Below, one piece after another: positions 39,771-55,512 of a stretch of 64,000 nt of DNA. The stretch lies in NCBI GenBank assembly GCA_020072565.1, contig JAIQGI010000007.1:62001-126000 (forward strand), in the 5' to 3' direction. Source of the DNA: Terriglobia bacterium. GTDB lineage: Bacteria > Acidobacteriota > UBA6911. A model generated the notes under the pieces. The model saw nothing but the letters and a program-made list of their open reading frames with translations, searched no databases and was not told where the DNA came from. How positions within the stretch are numbered: position 1 is the stretch's first letter; the number at the start of each line of letters is the position of its first letter. A program made the position numbers and the translations under genes.

Positions 39771-40370
39771 GTGACAGATCATCTCTATCGTTTTCTGGAT
39801 GTTGGGGAGCCGCCGCGCAAATGCGATTGCATCTTTGTGCTCGCCGGCAGGCACGAGCGCAAGATCTACGGAATCGATCTCTGGCACCGCGGCTATGCTC
39901 CAGAGCTCATCCTGAGTGTCGGCCGCTTTGAATGGCGGAGCTATTATGAGCTTGGACTGCCGGCCGACGGCGGTCTCAAGCAGCTCGTGGATGCAACGCC
40001 TCCAAGGGAGCGCCACTTCTTCGTGCGCTTGCGCGCGTCCCATGCGGAATCGACCTTGATCGAGAAGGGCCGCCTCGGCACGATGACAGAAGGACGGGCC
40101 CTGGCTGCGGTGTTGCGCGGAGGATCGATTCGCTCGCTTATGGTTGTCTCGACATCCATCCATCTACGCCGAGTGGCGTTGGTGTTTCGCCAGGCTTTTC
40201 GCGGCGCCGGCATAGAATTGACTTTTGTAGCAGTTCCTGAAGATCTCTCTTCGCTCCGCCGATCCGATCTCCGCTCCATCAAGGAGGGGCGCGCCGCCGT
40301 ATGGCGGGAATTCAAGAAGTACTGCTACTACCGCCTCATATACAGCTTCAGCTCCGGTCGTCGCAACTGA
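39771..40370 (+). CDS. YdcF-like DUF218 protein
   Basis: 199 residues starting with GTG. Core DUF218 motifs: [20 protein letters not shown], the central [20 protein letters not shown], and [20 protein letters not shown] near the end. The typical N-terminal membrane anchor is lacking, so it is probably cytoplasmic. Members are linked to envelope metabolism but the reaction is unproven. Its 3' end overlaps cysA tail-to-tail by 23 bases. An antisense open frame (39606-40163) is rejected. Confidence 0.75.
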
Positions 40371-41403
40371 ACACTTTCATATCTCTGGGTCTGAGAAAGA
40401 CCTCATCCCCCTTCCTCAACTGAAGCTCTTGAAATCGTTCCTGCGAGATCTCAACATGAACGGGATCACCCCACTCTGCAATCGCTTCTACCTTGACGAG
40501 GGGACCCGCCGAGTTGATGTGTTTGATCGTCGCCCGATAGTGAAGCCCTGCTTGCGGCTCCCGGTCAATGTCAAGCGCGTGAGGACGCACGTAGACAATG
40601 CTGGGTTTTGAGTCACTCGAGAGACCGGACGCCGACTCGCCGACGCCCGGTCGCTCCCCCTCCATGCGGCCGCGGAACAAGTTGACGTTGCCGAGGAAAT
40701 CGTAAACGAAAGCGCTTGCCGGCTGGTGGTAGACCTCCTCAGGCGAGCCCACCTGCTCAATGCGGCCTTCGTTCATCACCACCACGCGGTCGGAAACCTC
40801 CAATGCTTCTTCCTGATCATGGGTCACAAACACGCTGGTAATGTGAATCTCATCATGCAGCCTGCGCAGCCAGCGCCGCAGTTCGATTCGTACCTTGGCG
40901 TCCAGGGAACCGAAGGGTTCATCCAGCAACATAATCTTTGGTTCCACAGCCAACGCACGCGCCAATGCGACCCGCTGGCGTTGGCCGCCCGAAAGCTGAG
41001 AAGGATAGCGTGTGGCATGGTTTTCAAGCTGCACCAGTCGAAGCAGTTCATGAATTCGGGCCTGGATCTTTTCGTCGGAAGGCCGCAGTCTGCGCGGCCT
41101 GACGCGCAGGCCGAAGGCGATGTTTTCGGAGACCGTCATGTGGCGGAAAAGCGCATAGTGCTGAAAAACGAAACCTACATTGCGCTCGCGAGCACTCCGA
41201 TCGCTGATGTCCTTACCGTCAAAAAGCACATACCCCGAGTCGGGAAACTCCAGGCCGGCAATGATCCGCAGCAGCGTGGTCTTTCCCGAGCCGGAGGGCC
41301 CCAGCAAGGCCACCAGTTCACCGGCCCGAACCTCGAGGTCGACATCTTTGAGAGCGGTGAATTCCCCAAATCGCTTAGAGATGTTGCGCGCTTCGATGCT
41401 CAT
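40348..41403 (-). CDS. cysA: Sulfate/thiosulfate ABC transporter ATPase
   Basis: 351 residues from the ATG at 41403, which overlaps the cysW stop (ATGA). Walker [11 protein letters not shown]-loop [13 protein letters not shown], signature [16 protein letters not shown], Walker [15 protein letters not shown], switch [15 protein letters not shown]-terminal TOBE-like regulatory domain ([13 protein letters not shown]) is present. Last gene of the sulfate uptake operon. Confidence 0.93.
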
Positions 41404-42305
41404 ATCTCCTGCACCTCCCCGTGGCTCAACCGCGCCTTGGCCAGGTGTTGTCTTGATTTCCACTCGACAAAACTCCTGGCGGCCAGCGTCACGAGCGCTA
41501 ATAGGGCCAGCAACGATGCCACCGCAAATGCAGCGACATACTGATATTCGTTGTAGAGGATTTCAATATGGAGTGGCATCGTGTTGGTCAGGCCACGAAT
41601 ATGGCCTGAAACTACCGACACGGCCCCAAATTCCCCCATGGCGCGCGCGTTGCATAGGATTACGCCATAGAGCAATCCCCACTTCACATTTGGCAGGGTG
41701 ACGCGCAGGAATGTTTGCCAACCACTGGCGCCCAGCGTTAAAGCGGCCTCCTCCTCATCGTTCCCTTGGGATTGCATCAGGGGAATGAGTTCCCTGGCAA
41801 CAAACGGAAAGGTCACAAAAATGGTCGCCAATACAATGCCCGGCACCGCGAAAATGATCCTGATATCGTGGTCAGCCAGCCAAGGACCGAAGAGACCCTG
41901 CAGGCCAAATATCAGCACAAAAATCAGCCCCGATACCACAGGGGAGACTGAAAAAGGCAGATCAATCAAGGTAATCAAAAGGCTCTTGCCGATAAACTGG
42001 AACTTGGCGATCGCCCAGGACGCAGCAATGCCAAAAACTATGTTCAAGGGAACGGCAATCGCCGCTGTCAGCAGTGTAAGACGGATGGCCGACAGCGCAT
42101 CCGGATCACGAAAGGCGTTGGCGTAGGATCTCACGCCCGACTTGAATGCCGAGGCGAAGACCATTCCCAGGGGCAGGAGGAGAAAAAGACCGAGAAATAT
42201 CAAGGCCACTGCGATCAGCAGCCAGCGAACCGGCACCGGCTCCAGCAGGGTGCGGGCGGCAGTCATGGTACCGTTTTGAGAACTCAAAGACGCAGTTCGG
42301 GCCAT
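41400..42305 (-). CDS. cysW: Sulfate ABC transporter permease CysW
   Basis: 301 residues from the ATG at 42305 (AAGGAG 9 bases upstream). Six membrane helices and the binding-protein-dependent transport loop [22 protein letters not shown]. Typical CysW features: [20 protein letters not shown] near the C-terminus and [19 protein letters not shown]. Pairs with CysT. A 127-base gap with no recognised feature lies between it and cysT. Confidence 0.93.
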
Positions 42306-42450
42306 CGACCGATTCTCCTTCACCTTCGACCTGCCGACTCATCCCTGTGGCCATCCTGGGGGCAGGATCGCCAAATCTCAACCGGAAACCCCGCGCCGGT
42401 TCTGGATCTGACCCCGACACTCTCCTGCCCTGCGCCAATCTTCATGAAGA

Positions 42451-43284
42451 TCAGCCTCCATATCTCTTGCCGCTCCACCGTTGCAGCAGGTTGATGATCA
42501 ACAGCATAAGAAACGATGCTACGAGCATGACCACCGCAATCGCCGTGGCGCCCGCGTAGTTGTACTGCTCCAATTTGGTCACGATGAGCAGCGGCGTGAT
42601 CTCGGTGCGCATCGGCATGTTTCCTGAGATGAATACCACGGATCCATACTCGCCGACCGCTCGCGAGAGCGCCATGGCAAAGCCGGTCAGAACTGCAGGC
42701 AGGATCGTAGGAAGAATGACTCGGGTGAAGATCTGCCGGCGATTCGCGCCGAGGCTGGCAGCAGCCTCCTCCATGTCCTTGTCCATCTCCTCGAGCACCG
42801 GCTGCACAGTCCGGACTACGAAAGGAAGCCCGATAAACGTGAGCGCAATGACGATTCCCAACCGGGAGTAGGCGGCCTTGATCCCAATAGCCTCCAGGGG
42901 CCGCCCGAGCCATCCATTACTGGAGTAAATGGCCGTCAATGAAATGCCGGCTACAGAAGTGGGCAATGCAAAGGGCAAATCCACCAGAGAATCCAAGATC
43001 CGCTTCCCAGGAAAGCGGTAACGGACCAGCACCCAGGCCACCAGAACACCGAACACCAGATTGAGCAGGGCGCCGGCAAACGATGCCCCAAAGCTGAGTT
43101 TGTAAGACGCAAGCGCACGCGGCTCGGTAGCCAGACTCCAGAACTCGTGCCAGCTCAGCGAAGCCGTTTTCAAAAAAACAGCGGAAAGCGGGATCAGCAC
43201 GATCAGGGCCAGGTAGAACAGCGTAACGCCCATCGATATGCCAAAACCGGGCAGAATGCTGCGCTGCTTTAGAGCAAGAGCCAT
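42451..43284 (-). CDS. cysT: Sulfate ABC transporter permease CysT/CysU
   Basis: 277 residues. The ATG at 43284 is preferred over one four codons upstream because GGAGGA lies just before it. Six helices. Family motifs: [40 protein letters not shown] and [18 protein letters not shown]. Forms the membrane channel with CysW. Confidence 0.93.
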
Positions 43285-43319
43285 CCGTTCCTCCATACCG
43301 GTCCGCAGCGGGGGAGTTC

Positions 43320-44342
43320 TTAACGGGCGGGCTGGTAGATCTGGTCGAAAACGCCGCCGTCAGAAAAATGTACCTTCTGGGCTTTCTGCCAGCCACCGAA
43401 GACCTCGTCTATGGTGAACAAGTTGACCTTGGGAAACTGGGCGGCATACTTAGCCAGCACTTGAGGGTCCCTGGGCCGGTAATAGTGTTTCCCGGCAATT
43501 TCCTGGCCCTCGACCGAATAGAGAAATTCCAGGTACGCCTGGGCCACGGCGCGAGTGCCGCGTTTGTCGACTACCTTGTCCACCAGGGCGACCGGCGGTT
43601 CCGCCAGGATGCTTAGAGATGGTACTACCAGCTCGAACCTGTCCTTTCCGAGCTCCTTGATGGCCAGCAGCACCTCGTTCTCCCAATTGACGAGGACATC
43701 GCCGATGCCGCGTTCCACGAAGGTGGTCGTGGCACCGCGCGCACCTGAGTCAAGTACAGGCACATTCCTGAAGAGGCCAGTCACAAAACCTCTTGCCTTT
43801 GCCTCGTCACCGTTGTTTTTCTTCAGTGCATAGCCCCAGGCTGCCAGATAGTTCCAGCGGGCAGCCCCGGATGTCTTCGGATTGGGCGTGATCACCGAGA
43901 TCCCGCTTCTCACCAGGTCGTCCCAATCCCTGATCTTCTTGGGGTTCCCCTTGCGGACCAGGAACACGAGCGTCGACGTGTAGGGGCAGCTGTTATGGGG
44001 GAGGCGTGATTGCCAATTCTTGGGCAGCAGCCTGGCGGTCTCGGCAATGGCATCAATATCATAGGCAAGAGCAAGGCTCACCACGCTTGCCTCCAGGCCA
44101 TCGATGACACCGCGCGCCTGCTTACCCGATCCCCCATGAGACATATTGATGACGACTGTCTGGCCGGTTTTTTCGAGCCAGTGTTTGGCAAAAGTGACGT
44201 TGATCTCCTGGTAGAACTCGCGAGTCGGATCATAGGAAACATTGAGAAAAGTGAGGAGACCCGCATGGGCAAATCCCGTCAGGGCCAGCGCCAATATGAA
44301 GCTCGACACGGCAAGTAACCGAACGAGTTTTCTGAGTGACAT
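43320..44342 (-). CDS. sbp: Periplasmic sulfate-binding protein
   Basis: 340 residues from the ATG at 44342, preceded by AGGAGGTGA, an excellent ribosome-binding site. Signal peptide ends near ALTGFAHA. Mature start [20 protein letters not shown] and the binding motif [20 protein letters not shown] are typical of the Sbp/CysP family, as is [20 protein letters not shown]. Delivers sulfate to CysTWA. Confidence 0.95.
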
Positions 44343-44383
44343 TTCACCTCCTGACACTGCGCGCAAGGACTCTTGGAAACAGC

Positions 44384-45928
44384 TCAGAACCCAATCTGGA
44401 ACCGGCTCAGGATCGCGTGTTCCGTCGGCCGGTTCCCCTGAAGGCTGCCCCCTTGGAAGCGCGTCTGTTCATAGTTCACCACAAACTTCACCATCTTGGC
44501 CATATACCAGTTCAAACCGAGCACAAAGGCGCTGGCTTGCTTTGCCGACTTGGTAATGTCGGCATACCCACTGCTGAAGGCTTCTTTGTCTACCCTGAGG
44601 TCGCTGTAGCGCGTTGTAAACTCAAGAGCCCCCAGCCCTCCCTCTTTGGGATTGAAGGACCTCTTGGGAGACACCGCACGGTAGGACGGTTTCCCTCCCA
44701 GCACGTAAGAGGCGGCCACTTGCCATCCGCGGTTCTGGACCGCTCCAAGACCTGCAGCTTTTCTCACCTCCTGGGAAGAGTAGGCATACTCAGTCAACAG
44801 TCCGAAGGAACCCAAATAGTAATATGCCTGGGGTGAAAAGCGATAACGCTCGCCGTCGGCCGTAACGCCTGAGTTATAGGTGAAGAAAACTGCCTGCCCG
44901 GACGTTTTAAATGAAGGGAGACTCCCCAGTTGCTTGCCGGTGCTTCCCCCGATTCCAGCGCCCAGTCCCTTCAAAACCTCAAAGGAGCTGTTTTTAAAGG
45001 GGTGGGCAAAAATGCGGCCAACGATTTCTTTGCCATCATTGGTGTCCATGTCGGAGCTTGTCCCGTCCGGGACGCCATTGAAAACGCCAAACGCATAGCT
45101 GAGGGCACCCGCCCTGAGGTCACCATAAACCTGCGCCCCAACGTCCCTGACGGGCAACAGAAGTGAGGGAAAGGCACGAGCCACAAAAGTAAGATCGGTG
45201 TCACCCTGCAGCACCTCGAGACCTAACGGCGATTTGGTCTTTCCAAAACGAAATTTTGCAGCCGGGAAATAGTTGAAATCCAAGTGGAGGTCCTGGAGTA
45301 CCGTTTGACCTCCGGCGAAATCCGGCATGATCTTAAAATCGAAATACTTGAAGATGGTTCCTTGAAATACGGGGCGGGCGCGTCCAATTTGAAACGTCTC
45401 CAGCGCCGGGGAAGGCTGACCCACGAACGACCGGTTGTCGGCTTGGAGGTAACCATCAAACTTCAACTGAAAGTTCTTGTCGGCAGAAGTCAGAGAGAAA
45501 CCATCCTTGCCGACAGTGACGGTGGCAGTCTCCTTCTGTTTCTCGGCGGCGGTTTCCTGTTCCAACTCACGGCGCCTTTCGATGACGCGGAGTTTCTGAT
45601 CCAGCGCTTCGAATTGCTCCTCGATCGTGGCCTTTTGAACGGCTGCAGCATTGGCGCCGGGCGTGGCCGCCGGGACGGATTGGGGGCCGGAGCTCTTTTC
45701 CGGTTTGTCTGCCCGATCACGCTGCATGTCGTCCAGACGGCTCTCCAATGACCGCAGTTTGGCTTCGATCGCCTCCAGTCGTTCCTGCAATCTGGCGATA
45801 CCGCCCTGAGAGGTCGCAGTCGTTTCGGGAATCTTTTCCTGGGCGTAAATGGATGCCGTGGGGACGAACGGCATCGCGGCCAAAAGCATTTCAAGCGTAA
45901 GAGAGATAAAAAAGCGGTGTGGCTTCAT
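44384..45928 (-). CDS. Outer-membrane porin, OprO/OprP (phosphate-selective porin) family
   Basis: 514 residues. Signal peptide (cleaved near SIYAQ), a coiled-coil segment (about 45-75, [19 protein letters not shown]) that may trimerise or bind the wall, a Pro/Ala linker, then a beta-barrel of the porin O/P family ending in a C-terminal Phe (SRFQIGF), as outer-membrane barrels do. First gene of the sulfate operon, so it probably admits sulfate. The name 'phosphate-selective' is only the family label. Confidence 0.85.
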
Positions 45929-46178
45929 GACTGCCTTCTCCTCGTTTAGGAATGTTCCACCCGTCTGGTCGGGTACTGAATCCAGATCTACTTCCTCTCC
46001 CTTCCCTCATCGGCATATGCGCGGAAATCGGACCCTTCTTTGCTCTCTATTCCCCCCCGCGCGTGCATCACGAAAGACGATCGCGACCGCAGCGAAGCAG
46101 GCCTGATGGCTTGCACCAGACATCTCCGGCATGATCCGCCGTTCTGGACCGGGCTTCGTGATTCTTATTATCTAGTAC

Positions 46179-46197
46179 GTCTATCATTCTAATAGAC
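46179..46197. promoter_or_regulatory. Putative Rrf2 operator upstream of the porin-sulfate operon
   Basis: GTCTATC-ATTCT-AATAGAC: 6-bp perfect arms (GTCTAT/ATAGAC). It matches the palindrome at the rrf2 promoter in both half-site (TCTATC...ATAGA) and 5-base spacing. It lies 250 bases ahead of the porin start, between rrf2 and the operon. The remaining 45929-46178 has no recognised gene. Confidence 0.55.
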
Positions 46198-46215
46198 TAG
46201 ACTCATAAAAAATTT

Positions 46216-46674
46216 TTATCCGGGACGGCGCCTTCCTGCTGCAGTCTTGGGTCTTGCTTCGACCTTACGGATGACATCGGCGAGCGTGGTTCCGTCCAGA
46301 ATCCTGCCCATGACGTCTCGGACCTCTTTCATGACGATTCGGATGCCGCAAGTTGCTTCGTCCAGGCAATCATCACACTTCATATAGGCCGTCTGACTCA
46401 CGCACGGCACAAGCGCTATCGGCCCATCCATAAAGCGTATGACCTGGCCCAGGGTGATGGATTCCGGATGCTTGGCCAGAAAATAACCGCCCCCTTTTCC
46501 CTTCCTGCTTTGCAGCAGGCCATGCTTCTTCAGTTCCAGCAGGATCAATTCGAGGAACTTTTTTGGAATGAACTGGCTGGTTGCGATATCCGCGATGAGG
46601 ATGGGGCCTTGGTCGTACTCGGCGGCGAGCATGAGCAGCGCTTTCAACCCGTATTTGGCCTTTTTTGAAATCAC
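46216..46674 (-). CDS. Rrf2-family transcriptional regulator
   Basis: 152 residues from the GTG at 46674, which gives the usual Rrf2 opening (ISKKAKYGLKALLMLAAEYD). Winged helix with the recognition region SQFIPKKFLELILLELKKHG and the wing RKGKGGGYFLAKHPESITL. Four Cys follow (near residues 91, 100, 103 and 109), compatible with an Fe-S cluster or redox sensing. It lies upstream of the porin-sulfate operon, separated by a palindrome, and carries another over its own promoter, so it likely controls sulfate uptake. A short AT palindrome follows its stop. Confidence 0.9.
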   Translation of the reverse strand: MISKKAKYGLKALLMLAAEYDQGPILIADIATSQFIPKKFLELILLELKKHGLLQSRKGKGGGYFLAKHPESITLGQVIRFMDGPIALVPCVSQTAYMKCDDCLDEATCGIRIVMKEVRDVMGRILDGTTLADVIRKVEARPKTAAGRRRPG

Positions 46675-46686
46675 GGCATTACCCAA

Positions 46687-46713
46687 TATAATCTATCGAT
46701 ATGATAGATTATA
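46687..46713. promoter_or_regulatory. Rrf2 operator over its own promoter
   Basis: A perfect 11-bp inverted repeat, TATAATCTATC (46687-46697) and GATAGATTATA (46703-46713), with spacer GATAT. It covers the -10 box and the transcription start of rrf2, the placement expected for autorepression. Confidence 0.8.
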
Positions 46714-46737
46714 GGTCGCGCTTACGCTCTTTGTCAA
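46708..46737 (-). promoter_or_regulatory. Consensus promoter of rrf2
   Basis: On the minus strand TTGACA (46737-46732), an 18-base spacer, then TATAAT (46713-46708). Both boxes are perfect consensus. The -10 box is one half of the operator palindrome. The rest of the gap (46738-46864) shows nothing recognised. Confidence 0.8.
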
Positions 46738-47949: not shown

Positions 47950-49935
47950 CTAGAGGATGTTTTGTCCGAGCAGCTCCGGCGGCTTCTCAATTCCGAAAGC
48001 ACTGAGGATGGTAGCCGTCAGATCATAGAGCGCGGGCTTCTCCGCCCGGATGTTTCTGTTCATCAGGAGAATCCCGGGAATGGTCTCCGGGTCCATGCAG
48101 TGATCCGCCCCCCACTTGGTCGTGTTGTTTTCGAATGTGTTCTTCGGCATTTTTCCCAGCGGGGTCGCCCAGGAGGCCCGATAGCCCCGCCGGTAACCGA
48201 CGATGATATCAGGTGCCTCGTCCAGCATGGGCCCATGGTATGACTGACTCGCCAGATACGCTTTGGATATGGCTTTTTCCCCCGTAACCGGGTCGACTAC
48301 ATTCTCGAGCTTGGCGGCAAGCTCACGGATCAGAGCTTCTTTCTCCTCTCCCGAATCGACGATCCCCATGCCCTCCCGTCCTCTCACGTTGATGTACAAT
48401 CCGTTGAGACCCAGGGCATAGGCTTTGGTTCCTTCCCAGTCGGTGTTGGAGAAAAACTCGGCGCTCTCCTGCTGTGCAGGATCGACAATCCTCAAATAAT
48501 CGTTCTGCAACAGCCAGGTGTTCAGGTTGAAAGAACGCCGGAAGGGCGCGAAGCCGTGGTCGGACAGAACCATGAGCAGGGTGTCGCGGTCCACCTTGGT
48601 CATAGCCCTTTCCAAGACCCGGTCCATTTGGCCATAGACGCGCTCCGTTACATCTCCGTACTTGGCGGCCAGTGCGCTGTTGTTGAACGGATCGGTCTTG
48701 TCCATGAAGCGCATGAACATGTGCTGCCGCTGGTCAGAGCTCGAAAAGTAGTGAAACCAGAGACCTGATTCGAACCTCTGCAACTCGTACTCGAACAGTT
48801 CCAGGCTTTCCTTCAGGATGCTCTCGTCCTGGGCGAGAAACTCCGCTTCGTCCAGCACGCCATGGTCAAGCGCTTTCGTGTCGGCCGGCAGGCCTTTCGT
48901 AAAGAAGGGGCCGATGTGGCTTTCCAGCTCCTGGGAATAGCTTGGGGGTGTGGAGATCGGGAGAGCCGGGGCCGCGGGATCCAAATTCACGGGCGAGACA
49001 TAAAGCTTGAATTCCGGACGAATCTGTTTGAGGTAGAACTGGCAGATCCCGCGCACACTTTGCGTCGGGATCATCGGGAAGCTGATGCGCTTCCACGCAC
49101 TCCACTCGCCCTCCCTCAGGATGAACTCGTGATCCTGGATTTGTATCTTCGCCACAGGATTCACGGGGTCCACAAAGACCTTGAAGTGGATCGTCGAGGC
49201 AACGCTTCCTTTCCGGAAACTGTTCGTGGGCCCTTCGAGGTCCGCCTCAACAAGATTGTTGATCACGCGGACGAGATTGATCTTGCCGCCCCCGATATCC
49301 GCCTCCATTTCCAAACTCTGAGTGGTATAGAAATTAAAAACTCCATAGGTCCCAAGAACGTCGGGCGTTCCCATCCCCGAAAGTGTCCTTTGAGAGGTCG
49401 CCGCCGGAGGAAAATTCGCTGGGATCTGGACAATGGTCGCGGGGACACCGTGTTCACCCAGAATCTGCCAGAAAGCTTTGCCCTTACGCAGCAATTCGAT
49501 CTTGCCACTCGAAATCGGCAGGACGTAACCACCCAGCTTCACCGTCCATTGGGCCGCCGACACTCGCGAAGTCGAGAGATAGGGGACGTAATCCTGCGGC
49601 GTGCGATGAATGAAGTCAAAGATGCCGTGCCCGCCGGGGTCCATCCCCGTGATGAAATTCGACCAGGCCACCGGACTTTGCGGCGGCAGGCTGGTCCGCA
49701 ACCTCCGAAACCCACCATCGTTGCGAAGCTTGCGGAAAGCGGGGAGCTTCCCTTGGTCCATCAGGGCCTCGAGGATGCCGGGATCCATGCCGTCAAAGCC
49801 GAGGATGATCATTTTCTGCCGGGTCTGTCGATTTCCGGAATTCCTCGCCACAGACGAGCAGCCCTGGTTGAGAGATGCCAGCGATCCCGTCGCCAGTCCT
49901 AATTTCAGAAAATCGCGACGGGTGAACCCGCTCAT
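47950..49935 (-). CDS. Alkaline-phosphatase-superfamily protein, Tat-exported
   Basis: 661 residues from the ATG at 49935 (GGGAGGGA upstream; its A overlaps the previous gene's TGA). Tat signal TRRDFLKLGLATGSLA, with a possible lipobox at LNQGC. Phosphodiesterase/nucleotide pyrophosphatase fold: IILGFDGMDPGILEALMDQG, nucleophile region QSPVAWSNFITGMDPGGHGI, then LSDHGFAPFRRSFNLNTWL and DHCMDPETIPGILL metal ligands. Substrate unknown. Third of three paralogues in tandem. Confidence 0.87.
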   Translation of the reverse strand: MSGFTRRDFLKLGLATGSLASLNQGCSSVARNSGNRQTRQKMIILGFDGMDPGILEALMDQGKLPAFRKLRNDGGFRRLRTSLPPQSPVAWSNFITGMDPGGHGIFDFIHRTPQDYVPYLSTSRVSAAQWTVKLGGYVLPISSGKIELLRKGKAFWQILGEHGVPATIVQIPANFPPAATSQRTLSGMGTPDVLGTYGVFNFYTTQSLEMEADIGGGKINLVRVINNLVEADLEGPTNSFRKGSVASTIHFKVFVDPVNPVAKIQIQDHEFILREGEWSAWKRISFPMIPTQSVRGICQFYLKQIRPEFKLYVSPVNLDPAAPALPISTPPSYSQELESHIGPFFTKGLPADTKALDHGVLDEAEFLAQDESILKESLELFEYELQRFESGLWFHYFSSSDQRQHMFMRFMDKTDPFNNSALAAKYGDVTERVYGQMDRVLERAMTKVDRDTLLMVLSDHGFAPFRRSFNLNTWLLQNDYLRIVDPAQQESAEFFSNTDWEGTKAYALGLNGLYINVRGREGMGIVDSGEEKEALIRELAAKLENVVDPVTGEKAISKAYLASQSYHGPMLDEAPDIIVGYRRGYRASWATPLGKMPKNTFENNTTKWGADHCMDPETIPGILLMNRNIRAEKPALYDLTATILSAFGIEKPPELLGQNIL

Positions 49936-52076
49936 GCTTTCCCTCCCTCCCGGACTGATGAAGGCTTTCCCGTGTCGATGAGTGCGCGGCCATCCATGTG
50001 CGCCGGCACGGGGACGCCGAACAGCTCGAGTGCGGTAGGCGCGATATCCCAGATCGAAGGATCCCTTCGATTCAACGCCTTGCTCGAGAAGATCACTCCC
50101 GGCACGGTCCCGGGATCGATACAGTGGTCTCCGCTCCATGCTTTGGTGTTGTCCTCGAAGATCGTCATGCCGACTATCCCCTTTACCGAATCCCAGGATG
50201 CCCGGTAACCTTCGCTGTAGCCGACGATGAGATCGGGAGAGTTTTCCTTGTAGGGTCCTTCAAAAATGCGATCCTTATCGAAAACCTCCTTGATCGCACA
50301 ATGCCCCTGCTCATCATCTGCAAGTCCTGTCAGCTTTTCGACGAGTTCCCTCTTCAGAGCCCTCGCTTCCTCGCCTGGCATGACAACCCCATCTGCCTCC
50401 CGGCCCTTCTGGTTGAGATAGATTCCGCCCAGGCCCAGGGCATATGCCTTAGTCTTTGTCCAGTCAACACCCTGGAACCATTCTCCGCTGTCCGATCTGC
50501 CGTCCTTCAGTGCGAGATAGCCGTTTTGAAACAACCACGTGTTCAGGTTAACTCCCCTCCGAAACGCCTTGAATCCATGGTCAGACATGACGATAAGGAC
50601 GCTCCCGTCATCAAGCTGTTCGCGAACCCGGCCTACGAGTTCATCCATTCGCCGATATAAGTCCTCGATGACTTGGGCGCTCATCCCGGCCTGCCCTGTC
50701 CTGAGGGCGGGATGGTCCTTATCAAGATAGCGGAAAAACATATGCTGAATGCTGTCTGTTGTTTCGAAAACGAAGGCCACGACCCCCCGCTTCGTCTTTG
50801 ACAGGGCGTTAAAAAAGATCTTTTCCCAATCCTGATGATTCGAGTACGCAAGTTCGAGGAAGGCTGCTTCGGTGAGAGCTCCCTCGTTCAGTGCCCAAGT
50901 GTCATTGGCAAGCCCGAGGGTGACAAACTTTCCTAGGAGCTTCGACAGATAAATGGAGTAATAGAACGGATAAGAGACCGGCAAAGCCGGTTTTTCAGGG
51001 TCGATGTTCAGAGGAGTGATGTACATCTCAAATTCGGGCCGGACGTCCAGGATCAGCATGCGGCAGATGCACCGTACTTTGATACCAAGGCCTGGCCGGA
51101 AGGTCAGGCGGATCCAGGGAGAAAGTTCTCCCTTCTTCAGACAAAATTCCTGACCATCCACATGTAAATTCACATTCTCCGCGTCCGGCAGGATCGTGAC
51201 TCTCAGCGGCAGGCGCATTTCCACGGCCTGCTTGCGCAGCGTGTTGTCCGGCCCTGAAATGTAAGTATGGATACAGTCTCCCGCCACGGTGACGGGGATG
51301 CGCACACCCCCTTCCATCACCTTTGCCCTATTTTGTGCGGAGGTATAGTAGGAAAAGGTCCCCTGGCTACCTTTCAGGTCAGGAGCGCACATTCCCGAGA
51401 GGATGTGGCCTTTGAACTTTTCGGGCGGGAAGGTGATCGGAACCCTCAATATGGAACAGAAGATTCCTTTGTCTCCCAGGATCTTCCAGAAAGGCACGCT
51501 CTTGCGCATCCCTCGAATCTCCGGCTTGGAAACCGGGATGCGGTATTTGCCCAGCGAAAGCACCCTCCTGGGTTTTCCAATGTATGCGGAAGAGAGGGTA
51601 GGAAGGTAAGTGCGCGGATCGCGACTGAGAAAGTCGAATATGTTGTGTTTGGAAGGGTTCGAACCGGTCATGAATGAGGACCAGGCAACGGGCGAGATGG
51701 AAGGCGTAGTCGTCCGGAGGCGCGCATAGTCCCCTTCCTCTCTAAGTCGGGAAAGGTGCGGCAGCTTTCCCTCTGCCATGAACTTTTCCGCAAGAATCGG
51801 ATCCAATCCGTCAAGGCCTACGATAACCATCCTGTCGATGCTGCTCCTGGCGTAAACCTTCCGTCCCCTGATTAACCAATAAAGGAACCGGAATGGCCAG
51901 GCGAGGATGGACAGCAGGGCCAGGAAAAAAACCCCGATTAGGACCAGGAACGAGGATAGCAAAGCAAAGCCTGCGCCTGGCCCCACGTAAGCCTGAAGGG
52001 GAACAGCGAACGACAGCAGTAGAACTGCAACCAGAAGCGTTACTCGGGTCCTGGAGCAATTTCGGCCCGAAATCAC
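49932..52076 (-). CDS. Alkaline-phosphatase-superfamily protein with two N-terminal membrane helices
   Basis: 714 residues from a GTG at 52076 that overlaps the preceding stop (GTGA), with GGAGGAA upstream. N-terminal helices at about 11-29 and 35-65, separated by AYVGPGAGFALL. A basic segment (RGRKVYARSSIDR) after helix 2 would place the catalytic domain in the cytoplasm by the positive-inside rule. Catalytic core: VIVGLDGLDPILAEKFMAEG, SPVAWSSFMTGSNPSKHNIF, MSDHGFKAFRRGVNLNTWLF and DHCIDPGTVPGVIF. Closely related to the next gene. Confidence 0.87.
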   Translation of the reverse strand: MISGRNCSRTRVTLLVAVLLLSFAVPLQAYVGPGAGFALLSSFLVLIGVFFLALLSILAWPFRFLYWLIRGRKVYARSSIDRMVIVGLDGLDPILAEKFMAEGKLPHLSRLREEGDYARLRTTTPSISPVAWSSFMTGSNPSKHNIFDFLSRDPRTYLPTLSSAYIGKPRRVLSLGKYRIPVSKPEIRGMRKSVPFWKILGDKGIFCSILRVPITFPPEKFKGHILSGMCAPDLKGSQGTFSYYTSAQNRAKVMEGGVRIPVTVAGDCIHTYISGPDNTLRKQAVEMRLPLRVTILPDAENVNLHVDGQEFCLKKGELSPWIRLTFRPGLGIKVRCICRMLILDVRPEFEMYITPLNIDPEKPALPVSYPFYYSIYLSKLLGKFVTLGLANDTWALNEGALTEAAFLELAYSNHQDWEKIFFNALSKTKRGVVAFVFETTDSIQHMFFRYLDKDHPALRTGQAGMSAQVIEDLYRRMDELVGRVREQLDDGSVLIVMSDHGFKAFRRGVNLNTWLFQNGYLALKDGRSDSGEWFQGVDWTKTKAYALGLGGIYLNQKGREADGVVMPGEEARALKRELVEKLTGLADDEQGHCAIKEVFDKDRIFEGPYKENSPDLIVGYSEGYRASWDSVKGIVGMTIFEDNTKAWSGDHCIDPGTVPGVIFSSKALNRRDPSIWDIAPTALELFGVPVPAHMDGRALIDTGKPSSVREGGKA

Positions 52077-53365
52077 TTAAATTCCTCCATGATCTGGGCC
52101 TTCACATCAGAAATCTGTGGATCTGCCCCGCAGTCATGCGACGCCCAAAGAAAGGCGTCGTCCCATGTGTGCATCCCCTGCAGGTCCGAGCGGCCGAAGA
52201 TTTCCTTCTTCCCGACAGATCCCTTCATGTCGAAGCCGTGTTCAGCCAGAACCACGAGATCGGGCCCTCTTGCCGCGTGCGGGCCCGAGTATATTTCCTC
52301 CGCGTCGAAAACCTCCCGGACTACCTTCCTGCCCTGGTACTCAAGCTCCTTCAGGGCGCCGGCGATCTCCGTCTTCAGCGATTTCTTATCGTCCTTGTCG
52401 ATAATTCCCCTGGGAAACCGGCTTTTGAGGTTAAGGTATATCCGGTTCGGGTCAAGGGCAAACGCCCGTGTTCCTGGAGCAATCTCAGCCAGACGCTGGG
52501 GAGTTGGATTGTCGAACGCCAGGTAGCCGGCATGCTCAAGCCAGGCGTTGAGATAGACCTCTTGTGCGATTCCCGTGAAGCCGTGATCGGACAACAAATA
52601 TAGCCCCTTGATATCGCCGGTCAATTCCTCGAACTCACGGGCAATCTGGCCAATCAGGCCATCCACTTTTCTGTAATACTCGATGAATCCGGCGTGGCCG
52701 GCATGGCCGGGATCGGCATGAGCATCCCAGAGATAGTGGTGCAGCCGGTCCGTGCCTGTGACGATGAACTCGAAGAGATTCCATTCCTGACGCCAGAAAT
52801 ATTGGAAAGCCCTCAGCCCCCCCTGCAGGGTAGAGTCGAGTTCTTGCCAGAGAAACTCGCGGTCACGCCGGGCTCGCTCTGTATCAATGTCGATTTGATA
52901 GCCCATCTTTTCAAGAGCTGCCAGGTGCGACAGAGGATAAACGGCTCGTGCCAGTTCGATGGCAACGAATCCGGCGACCAGCGCACCCTCGATTTTCCTC
53001 GCCGGGTAGGTCGAGGGCTGGTTAATGACAATGCTCTTCAAACCCATCTCTCCGAGCTGATCAAATAGAGTAGGGGCTTTCACGTCGAGGAAGTTCGGGA
53101 AGCGGATCTGGTAGGAGTGGTCTCGAAAATCGGTAAAGCCGAAGATTCCATGATGGCCCGGGTCGGTACCGGTCATGAAACTAGTCCAGCTGACGGAGGA
53201 CACTTCCGGCAAGCTGGCTTTCATTTTGTGCACATGCCCCTTCTCAGCCAGCTGCTGCATTGCAGGCATGACACCGTCACCCGCGAATTTGAGGAGCAGG
53301 TCGAACGGGACCCCATCCAGGCCGATCACGCAGGCACGCTTCTTCCGATTCTCAGACGATGTCAT
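52073..53365 (-). CDS. Alkaline-phosphatase-superfamily protein, soluble
   Basis: 430 residues, no signal or membrane segment. Core: ACVIGLDGVPFDLLLKFAGD, SSVSWTSFMTGTDPGHHGIF, LLSDHGFTGIAQEVYLNAWL and ASHDCGADPQISD at the C-terminus (shorter than in its paralogues). First of three tandem, overlapping genes. A 102-base gap with no recognised feature separates it from cysN. Cytoplasmic version of the same activity, substrate unknown. Confidence 0.85.
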   Translation of the reverse strand: MTSSENRKKRACVIGLDGVPFDLLLKFAGDGVMPAMQQLAEKGHVHKMKASLPEVSSVSWTSFMTGTDPGHHGIFGFTDFRDHSYQIRFPNFLDVKAPTLFDQLGEMGLKSIVINQPSTYPARKIEGALVAGFVAIELARAVYPLSHLAALEKMGYQIDIDTERARRDREFLWQELDSTLQGGLRAFQYFWRQEWNLFEFIVTGTDRLHHYLWDAHADPGHAGHAGFIEYYRKVDGLIGQIAREFEELTGDIKGLYLLSDHGFTGIAQEVYLNAWLEHAGYLAFDNPTPQRLAEIAPGTRAFALDPNRIYLNLKSRFPRGIIDKDDKKSLKTEIAGALKELEYQGRKVVREVFDAEEIYSGPHAARGPDLVVLAEHGFDMKGSVGKKEIFGRSDLQGMHTWDDAFLWASHDCGADPQISDVKAQIMEEFK

Positions 53366-53467: not shown

Positions 53468-54703
53468 TCAGCCCAAGGCCGTGCGCGTGATGATCCCCCC
53501 CGCCACGACATCGAGGCCCCGGGTCAGAACGAATCGTCCCAATTCCTGAATGTAATTGAAGTTCTCTACGACGATGGGCTGGCGCGTGCTGATCTCGACC
53601 TCGGCGACCTCTGTTTCCAAGACACACTCCTGGTCCTGGCAGATTGGTTCCAAGGTCGACGAGTCGATTTTTCTCTCGATCCTGATGTCGACCGGAACCT
53701 CCTGGGTCGCGATGCGAAGCGACAGATCCTCACCAACGCGAAACGGGCGCTTGGACATCCAGAACACGTTCGCCTGAACCTTCGACGTCACTACGGGCCT
53801 GTTTCCGGTCGGGCAGGCGACTGCTCCGCGCTCGATAAACAGCGGTTCTGCGAGAGTAACGCCTATGCTTTCGCCGGCCTCCGCCTCGGTCTTTTCCTGC
53901 CACAAACTTTCGATCGAGCGTACAGTTGTCCTAGCCTCTTGCGGGAGGAAGGCGACCTCGTCACCCTGACAGATCTTCCCCGCCTCCACCCTCCCCACCA
54001 GGATCCTCTTGTCCTTCACCTTGTAGACATCCTGAATCGGAAACCGCAACGGCCGGTTGGACGCCGCCTCTCTTGGGAGGAAGGAGTCAAGTCCGTCGAG
54101 GACGGTCGGGCCATCATACCAGGGCATCTTATCTGAGGGAAACGCGACGTTGTCCCCGTCGCGGGCGGAAATCGGAATCGTGAAGGTCGGCGCGATTCCG
54201 AGCGACGACAGAAACGTCATTAGTTCGTGCTGGACTTCATGGAAGCGAGCCTGCGCATGACCGACCAAGTCCATCTTGTTGATGACCACGATCACCTGAT
54301 CGAGGCCCAGCATGCGCAGCAGGTAGGCATGCCGCTTGGTCTGTTCTTTCACCCCATCGTGCGCGTCCACAATCAGAATTGCGGCTTCCGCTTGCGAGGC
54401 GCCGGTGATCATGTTCTTGATGAACTCCTTGTGGCCAGGAGCATCGATGATGACATAACGCCTCTTGCCGGTCTTGAAGAAGGTCTGCGCGGTGTCGATG
54501 GTGATCCCCTGGGATCGTTCCTCCTCCAGGTGATCCATCACGAACCCGAACTCCATCTCCCGCCCCAATTCTTCGCAGGTCCGCCTTACCTCCTCGATCT
54601 TCTCCTCGGGAAGGCTGTCCGTGTCGTAGAGAAGGCGGCCGATCAGGGTCGATTTGCCGTGATCCACATGGCCGACAATCACGAATTTCAAATGTTCGAA
54701 CAT
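53468..54703 (-). CDS. cysN: Sulfate adenylyltransferase subunit 1 (GTPase)
   Basis: 411 residues. GTPase motifs [29 protein letters not shown] and [10 protein letters not shown], with [20 protein letters not shown] as the effector region, characteristic of CysN/NodQ. Shorter than E. coli CysN (475), and no APS-kinase (CysC) domain is fused. With CysD it activates sulfate to APS. Follows cysD by 8 bases. Confidence 0.95.
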
Positions 54704-54711
54704 CGTTTACC

Positions 54712-55512
54712 TCACATGTATCCCAGACTGCGCAGCTTCTGCATGACATAGGCCGATTCTTTGTCTTGAGCGCGGCCGGCCCGTTCTGCGGTTGTTGTGG
54801 TCCTGAGCTCTTCGATGATCTTGGGCAGCGTGTCGGCATCGGATTCAATGGGAGCACAACAGCTTTCGCAGCCGATCGATCGAAAACGCCGCCCGTTTTT
54901 GGCAAAATAGAGGCTGACGATCGGAATCCCTTCCCGGGCGACATACTCCCAGATATCCAGTTCCGTCCAGTGCAGCAGCGGATGGACGCGGATGTGGTCG
55001 TCATCCATCTGCTTGGATTTGTACTGATCCCACAGCTCCGGCGGCTGGTTCTTATAGTCCCATTTAAAATCCTGGTCGCGGGGAGAGAAGTAGCGTTCCT
55101 TGGCCCGGATCCCGTGCTCGTCCCTGCGGATGCCCAAAAGAAGGGCCTTGAACTTGTACTGATCGATCGCCATTTTGAGGGCATCGGTCTTGAGCACGTT
55201 GCAGCAGTTGAGTTTCCCTGTGCCGGGACTCATTCCGGCTGCCAGGGCCGCCTCGTTCCTGGCGACGAGCAGCCTGAGCCCCCACTCCTTAGCTTTACTG
55301 TCCCGGAAGTCATAGATCTCTTTGAACTTGTAGCTAGTATCGAGATGCAGGATCGGGAACGGGATCCGGTCAAAGAACGCCTTCCGCACCATCCACAAAA
55401 GCGTGGTGGAGTCTTTCCCGATCGACCACAGCATGCCGATGTTCCGGAACTGCTTGTAAGCTTCCCGGATGATGTAAATGCTCTTGCTTTCCAGTTCGTC
55501 CAGGTAATCCAT
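54712..55512 (-). CDS. cysD: Sulfate adenylyltransferase subunit 2
   Basis: 266 residues. ATP-PPase P-loop WSIGKDSTTLLWMVRKAF (SxGKDS form), then PILHLDTSYKFKEIYDFRD and the metal/cofactor-like RSIGCESCCAPIESDADTLP near the C-terminus, all typical of CysD. GAGGTG precedes the ATG. The 148-base leader has no Rrf2-type palindrome; TTGAC/GTCAA arms near 55630 are too short to call. Confidence 0.96.
   Translation of the reverse strand: MDYLDELESKSIYIIREAYKQFRNIGMLWSIGKDSTTLLWMVRKAFFDRIPFPILHLDTSYKFKEIYDFRDSKAKEWGLRLLVARNEAALAAGMSPGTGKLNCCNVLKTDALKMAIDQYKFKALLLGIRRDEHGIRAKERYFSPRDQDFKWDYKNQPPELWDQYKSKQMDDDHIRVHPLLHWTELDIWEYVAREGIPIVSLYFAKNGRRFRSIGCESCCAPIESDADTLPKIIEELRTTTTAERAGRAQDKESAYVMQKLRSLGYM

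Follow-up and report, generated by a model that had tools for sequence, protein, structure and literature searches.

A putative Rrf2-family repressor with two matched operators at a sulfate-import locus of Acidobacteriota

Does an Rrf2-type regulator encoded beside a sulfate importer control that importer together with its own gene, and which signal would it read? The question is raised by a 64-kb stretch of DNA (the window) from a 7.46-Mb assembly, in which rrf2, a porin gene, sbp, cysT, cysW and cysA follow each other in this order, all on the minus strand. We have compared the locus with its relatives, and the comparison suggests an answer to the first part of the question that is firmer than the answer to the second.

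The locus and its two operator sites

The product of rrf2 (46216-46674, minus strand) belongs to the Rrf2 superfamily, with both PF02082 (128.8 bits, gathering threshold 30) and TIGR00738 (116.6 bits, cut-off 73.3) above their cut-offs. Judged by alignment, translation starts at the GTG at 46674, whose residue is aligned with the first residue of the relatives, and is less likely to begin at the TTG at 46686. The porin (44384-45928, minus strand) is of the Porin_O_P family (PF07396, 71.1 bits, cut-off 20.9). The four genes that follow have the full composition of a SulT transporter, contiguous on the minus strand at 40348-44366: the sulfate-binding protein gene sbp (43320-44366; NF008022, 536.3 bits, cut-off 288; TIGR00971, 498.8, cut-off 155.5), the permease genes cysT (42451-43296; TIGR02139, 421.2, cut-off 246.1) and cysW (41400-42323; TIGR02140, 421.3, cut-off 329.1), and the ATPase gene cysA (40348-41463; TIGR00968, 396.5, cut-off 342.75). 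Classical SulT control in Escherichia coli is by CysB, whereas here a Porin_O_P-family porin gene and the gene of a local Rrf2 regulator precede the transporter genes.

The putative autoregulatory operator O1 (46687-46713) is a perfect palindrome, TATAATCTATC-ATATC-GATAGATTATA, with 11-bp arms and a spacer of 5 bp, and it is kept in the rrf2 promoters of relatives. It lies over a sigma-70 promoter that agrees with the consensus in 12/12 positions (minus strand, 18-bp spacer), the -35 box TTGACA being at 46732-46737 and the -10 box TATAAT at 46708-46713, inside O1, where it forms the outer part of the palindrome; the initial annotation had described just such a palindrome over a consensus rrf2 promoter. 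No 11-bp palindrome arose in 3000 first-order Markov simulations of the 191-bp region upstream of rrf2, and the matrix score of O1 (20.5) was reached in none of 20000.

That annotation had also placed a second site of the plan TCTATC-N5-(G/A)ATAGA ahead of the porin-sbp-cysTWA operon, and pattern, matrix and profile scans all locate it. This operator, O2 (46180-46196, within a 27-bp frame at 46175-46201), reads TCTATC-ATTCT-AATAGA, the right half departing once from the palindrome, and is found about 20 bp past the stop of rrf2 (46216) and about 250 bp before the start of the porin gene (45928). It is the weaker of the two sites: its score of 12.9 was reached in 13 of 20000 Markov simulations of the 287-bp gap between rrf2 and the porin gene, and a promoter search gave no sigma-70 consensus promoter at O2. 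Just before it lies an A-run/T-run (about AAAATTTTTT, 46203-46222), as is also seen after rrf2 in L051, L057 and L102; such runs before second sites may act as a terminator or as an upstream element of a promoter.

The genome search that had been proposed for the operator pattern returned the exact 12 bases at three places in the 7.46 Mb, two of which are O1 and O2, while the third (G000:C11:91580) is within a long coding ORF. When up to two mismatches are allowed, 4 matches stand against 4.45 expected, which is no rarer than chance, and the case for the sites therefore rests on comparison. A palindromic matrix built from 22 sites of other genomes only gave 20.5 for O1 and 12.9 for O2, with the next independent place in the 64-kb window at 5.8, and a sequence profile made without the window's sites returned O2 and O1 from the same 64 kb at E = 0.038 and 0.047, respectively, the next independent match being at 9.7. 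Over the whole genome, the profile including the window's sites found O1 and O2 as the only places at E <= 10, and the profile without them returned O2 alone (E = 4.5). Further members of the regulon in this genome were sought with the pattern and profile scans and rejected, as none appeared beyond rrf2 and the sulfate operon. The one-mismatch matches L004, L008 and L011 were read, and no obvious sulfur gene is near these three. CysN- and CysD-like genes, identified by ORF sequence and by what they match in relatives, are present at 53468-55512, some 7-9 kb upstream of rrf2, and the scan of the window found no operator there. Between rrf2 and these genes (47950-53365) are three consecutive genes of the type I phosphodiesterase / nucleotide pyrophosphatase family, also free of an operator.

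Operators in the relatives and the regulatory model

Relatives were collected by an ortholog search that covered 60 relatives, 396 genomes of the phylum (57 matching at E <= 1e-22) and one genome collection; phyla other than the window's own were sampled through a single scan of such a collection. The Rrf2 clade of the window has 21 members (support 100/98) from Acidobacteriota, KSB1, Omnitrophota and Bacteroidota. Its neighbouring genes are mostly sulfate transporters, cysDN-cysH, or sulfite-reductase and siroheme genes, and most of the rrf2 promoters carry the same operator. In about ten relatives of this clade the sbp-cysTWA genes come after rrf2 or, in one of these relatives (L056), stand beside it, and the rrf2 of L050 is divergent from cysD-cysN-cysH. 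In a Bacteroidota member (L053) rrf2 precedes a NirA/sulfite-reductase-type gene, a uroporphyrinogen methyltransferase gene and a siroheme-synthase domain; such a domain is also near rrf2 in L095, and a sulfhydrylase-family gene in L100. In L050 a near-perfect operator also precedes the genes for a TonB receptor, which includes a carboxypeptidase-regulatory domain, and for a TauE-type permease (L050:6700-10301); the two possibly take up organic or inorganic sulfur.

A palindromic motif found de novo in the rrf2 upstream regions of the window's clade, close to atA.tCTAtc.AaT.gaTAGa.Tat, had a log-likelihood of 229 against a maximum of 65 in shuffles, and the sister clade has a related motif, atAGTcgAttaA.TtaaTcgACTat, with 375 against 68. 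The core CTA-N9-TAG is invariant in 24 aligned sites. Second sites were sought with a matrix of the rrf2-upstream sites from which each locus was left out in turn, and were detected past rrf2 in eleven loci, namely the window, L050, L051, L053, L054, L057, L094, L096, L097, L098 and L112. With this matrix O1 (17.5) and O2 (13.0) rank first and second in 20 kb of the window, the next place having 8.6.

The distribution of the second sites follows the spacing of the genes. A second operator is present in 17/20 loci in which rrf2 and the start of the next gene are 20 bp or more apart, versus 0/11 in which the next gene overlaps rrf2 or starts within 10 bp (Fisher p = 4e-6, for loci that are phylogenetically non-independent); gene starts were called mechanically from ORFs for this count, by which a few gaps may be misjudged. 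The second site is missing mainly under tight coupling of rrf2 and the next gene, an arrangement in which a single promoter can serve both. Absence of the second site in relatives with the same operon had been named beforehand as an outcome that would speak against the proposed link, and the relatives with the order rrf2-porin-sbp are divided, as the site is present in L051, L096 and L097 and absent in L092 and L099. These observations also bear on the alternative in which autoregulation alone is real and O2 either arose as a palindrome by chance or is a feature of the 3' end of rrf2. The near-expected count at two mismatches and the imperfect right half of O2 are what such an origin would give, but second sites are found again directly after rrf2 in relatives that share 50-66% protein identity, and none is present where the genes touch, which makes this alternative very improbable. 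One further operator, with one mismatch, is placed ahead of a Porin_O_P gene far from rrf2 in a sister-clade genome (L157, G308:C13:9586), so that the site is not confined to rrf2 loci.

Each of the 32 loci with a site upstream of rrf2 (13/13 in the window's clade, 19/19 in the sister clade) has a TTGACA-like box ahead of the operator centre, at a distance of 18-49 bp overall and of 43-46 bp throughout the sister clade. With this spacing the operator of most loci covers the -10 box or lies immediately downstream of it, as expected for a repressor, and this position is the ground on which we infer both binding and repression rather than activation. We consider it likely that the locus encodes an autoregulated, sulfur-responsive repressor that acts through O1 and O2 on rrf2 and on porin-sbp-cysTWA. 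A dimer of the Rrf2 protein would bind O1 over its own -10 box, as well as O2 ahead of the sulfate operon, and under sulfur sufficiency it would repress rrf2 and sulfate import together. Matching sites recur in distant relatives from several phyla, and a real sulfur-uptake switch at this locus is therefore very probable. The initial annotation predicted an autoregulated switch for sulfate import. Comparison lends strong support to the autoregulation and to the control of the operon, because the same operator stands in the sulfate and sulfite loci of relatives and second sites occur in most loci with loose coupling; the sensing part is an extrapolation from the protein sequence.

The Rrf2 protein and its presumed signal

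The protein has four cysteines with the spacing C91-X8-C100-X2-C103-X5-C109 (codons within 46348-46404, minus strand), which form a putative Fe-S or metal site. Cys91, Cys103 and Cys109 are invariant in 20 aligned relatives, and Cys100 is kept in the window's clade and missing in the sister clade. Three cysteines in this loop mark the Fe-S regulators of the Rrf2 family (PMC5863699), and by its cysteines the window's protein falls in this class, while CymR holds no cluster (PMC9338935); a Fe-S sensor is favoured for these reasons. The earlier suggestion of Fe-S or cysteine sensing is plausible, with all four cysteines conserved in the clade and three of them shared with the sister clade and with the three-cysteine class of Fe-S Rrf2 proteins. 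A related Rrf2 group (L123-L125 and L127-L130) has none of the four.

None of the named regulators is identical with this protein by curated cut-offs, as the scores are 82.8 bits for CymR (NF047409, cut-off 195), 70.2 for IscR (TIGR02010, cut-off 207.55), 51.5 for RirA (NF008886, cut-off 193) and 45.9 for NsrR (NF008240, cut-off 182). It shares with IscR, NsrR and RirA the three cysteines in the C-terminal part of the domain, but differs in the fourth cysteine of the motif and in targets, which are sulfate and sulfite genes and not isc/suf, hmp or iron uptake. IscR has three cysteines and a His following the last one; compared with this ligand set and its spacing, the window's protein differs in cysteine spacing and has Arg112 in the place of the His, and its operon serves sulfate uptake instead of isc/suf. 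The operator resembles that of NsrR in being a palindrome of similar length, the NsrR consensus having 23 bp (PMC9338935).

In the mechanism that we favour, Cys91, Cys103 and Cys109 would hold a Fe-S cluster, with Cys100 as a possible fourth ligand. With enough sulfur and iron the cluster would be intact and repression favoured, whereas a protein that has lost it would allow sulfate to be taken up. That a Fe-S cluster is read in this way as a gauge of sulfur has, set against all alternatives together, roughly an even chance of being correct.

One alternative keeps the same repressor and targets and has the protein work like CymR of Bacillus subtilis and Staphylococcus aureus, repressing in complex with CysK and released by O-acetylserine, with the cysteines in a structural or zinc-binding role. 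CymR likewise controls sulfur acquisition, is the nearest named equivalog by score, and is the best match (2y75, TM 0.90 by target) of the predicted structure (pLDDT 88), followed by IscR and RsrR. As the closest solved fold thus belongs to a protein without a cluster, a protein-partner mechanism is possible, and B. subtilis CymR binds DNA complexed with O-acetylserine thiol-lyase (PMC9338935). However, the score is well under the CymR cut-off, CymR is known from Gram-positive bacteria and lacks the four cysteines conserved here, and a non-exhaustive annotation of the neighbours revealed no CysK gene at the loci that were read. We regard CymR-like sensing as unlikely. Membership of the three-cysteine class (PMC5863699) would equally suit a cluster that senses iron, redox state or NO in the manner of RirA, IscR or NsrR, sulfate uptake being then a supply line for Fe-S synthesis. 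Against this, the neighbours that could be identified in the clade serve sulfur assimilation or encode Pst-like transporters, and at these loci we recognised neither iron-uptake nor isc/suf genes. Such a signal appears rather improbable.

Pst-like transporters and the reach of the proposed switch

In the sister clade, and in L052, L057, L102 and L112, rrf2 leads PstSCAB-like operons; L052, L057 and L102 are members of the window's own Rrf2 clade. These Rrf2-linked systems share the fold and the operon layout of PstSCAB, with PstC over its cut-off, whereas the binding proteins, though of PstS fold, score below the PstS cut-offs in the four that were scanned. Altered signatures (SGAW and others) were noted in the binding proteins of L102-L122, L052 and L057. 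SGAW, GGAGKG and RSD-x-(C/S)GA are present in 22/22 Rrf2-linked binding proteins, and SGAW in 0/20 other Pst loci from 12 genomes of the same set, where the control loci with readable motifs have GSTS, GGGSxG or RxxGSGT. The contrast of 22/22 with 0/20 disfavours the view of the sister-clade systems as ordinary phosphate transporters, and every genome with a Rrf2-linked system has at least one further PstC.

No CysT/W permease exceeded its cut-off in any of the 21 genomes with Rrf2-linked Pst-like systems, and SulP was found in none of them except G052, apart from a marginal partial match in G139. PF01507 (CysD/CysH) is absent from most of these genomes, which at first spoke against sulfate use; this was reversed by the presence of Sat, found in 17 of the 18 sister-clade genomes, the eighteenth having CysD/CysH-type genes. 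Two points speak against a role of the Pst-like systems in sulfate import: neither Sat nor PF01507 was found in G052 and G096, and further families of sulfate carriers exist, namely CysP, CysZ and DASS (PMC5840216). Sulfate import is the simplest reading of the SGAW signatures, the presence of Sat and the general lack of SulT and SulP. It is conceivable, if somewhat doubtful, that the Rrf2 family governs a second kind of sulfate importer, PstSCAB-like without phosphate signatures, and reads sulfur via a cysteine-bound cluster.

Within the phylum, a SulT permease over the cut-off is encoded in 51 of the 396 genomes, and at 20 further SulT loci an adjacent Rrf2 gene was found once as a strong and once as a weak case. 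This rejects the idea that sulfate operons of the phylum are always paired with Rrf2; the pairing is recurrent, not universal.

By curated cut-offs, the predicted sulfur-uptake repressor is neither CymR nor IscR, and we found no paper on this regulator or its operator in the open-access literature. If the proposal is true, Acidobacteriota and scattered other Gram-negative phyla would possess a local counterpart of the Gram-positive CymR for sulfur uptake, one whose operator is defined and whose sensor probably differs. The operator would also serve as a genome marker that tags porins and an unassigned class of Pst-like transporters, and this tag would offer a direct route to test the cargo of the latter in genomes where neither a SulT nor a SulP importer is recognised.
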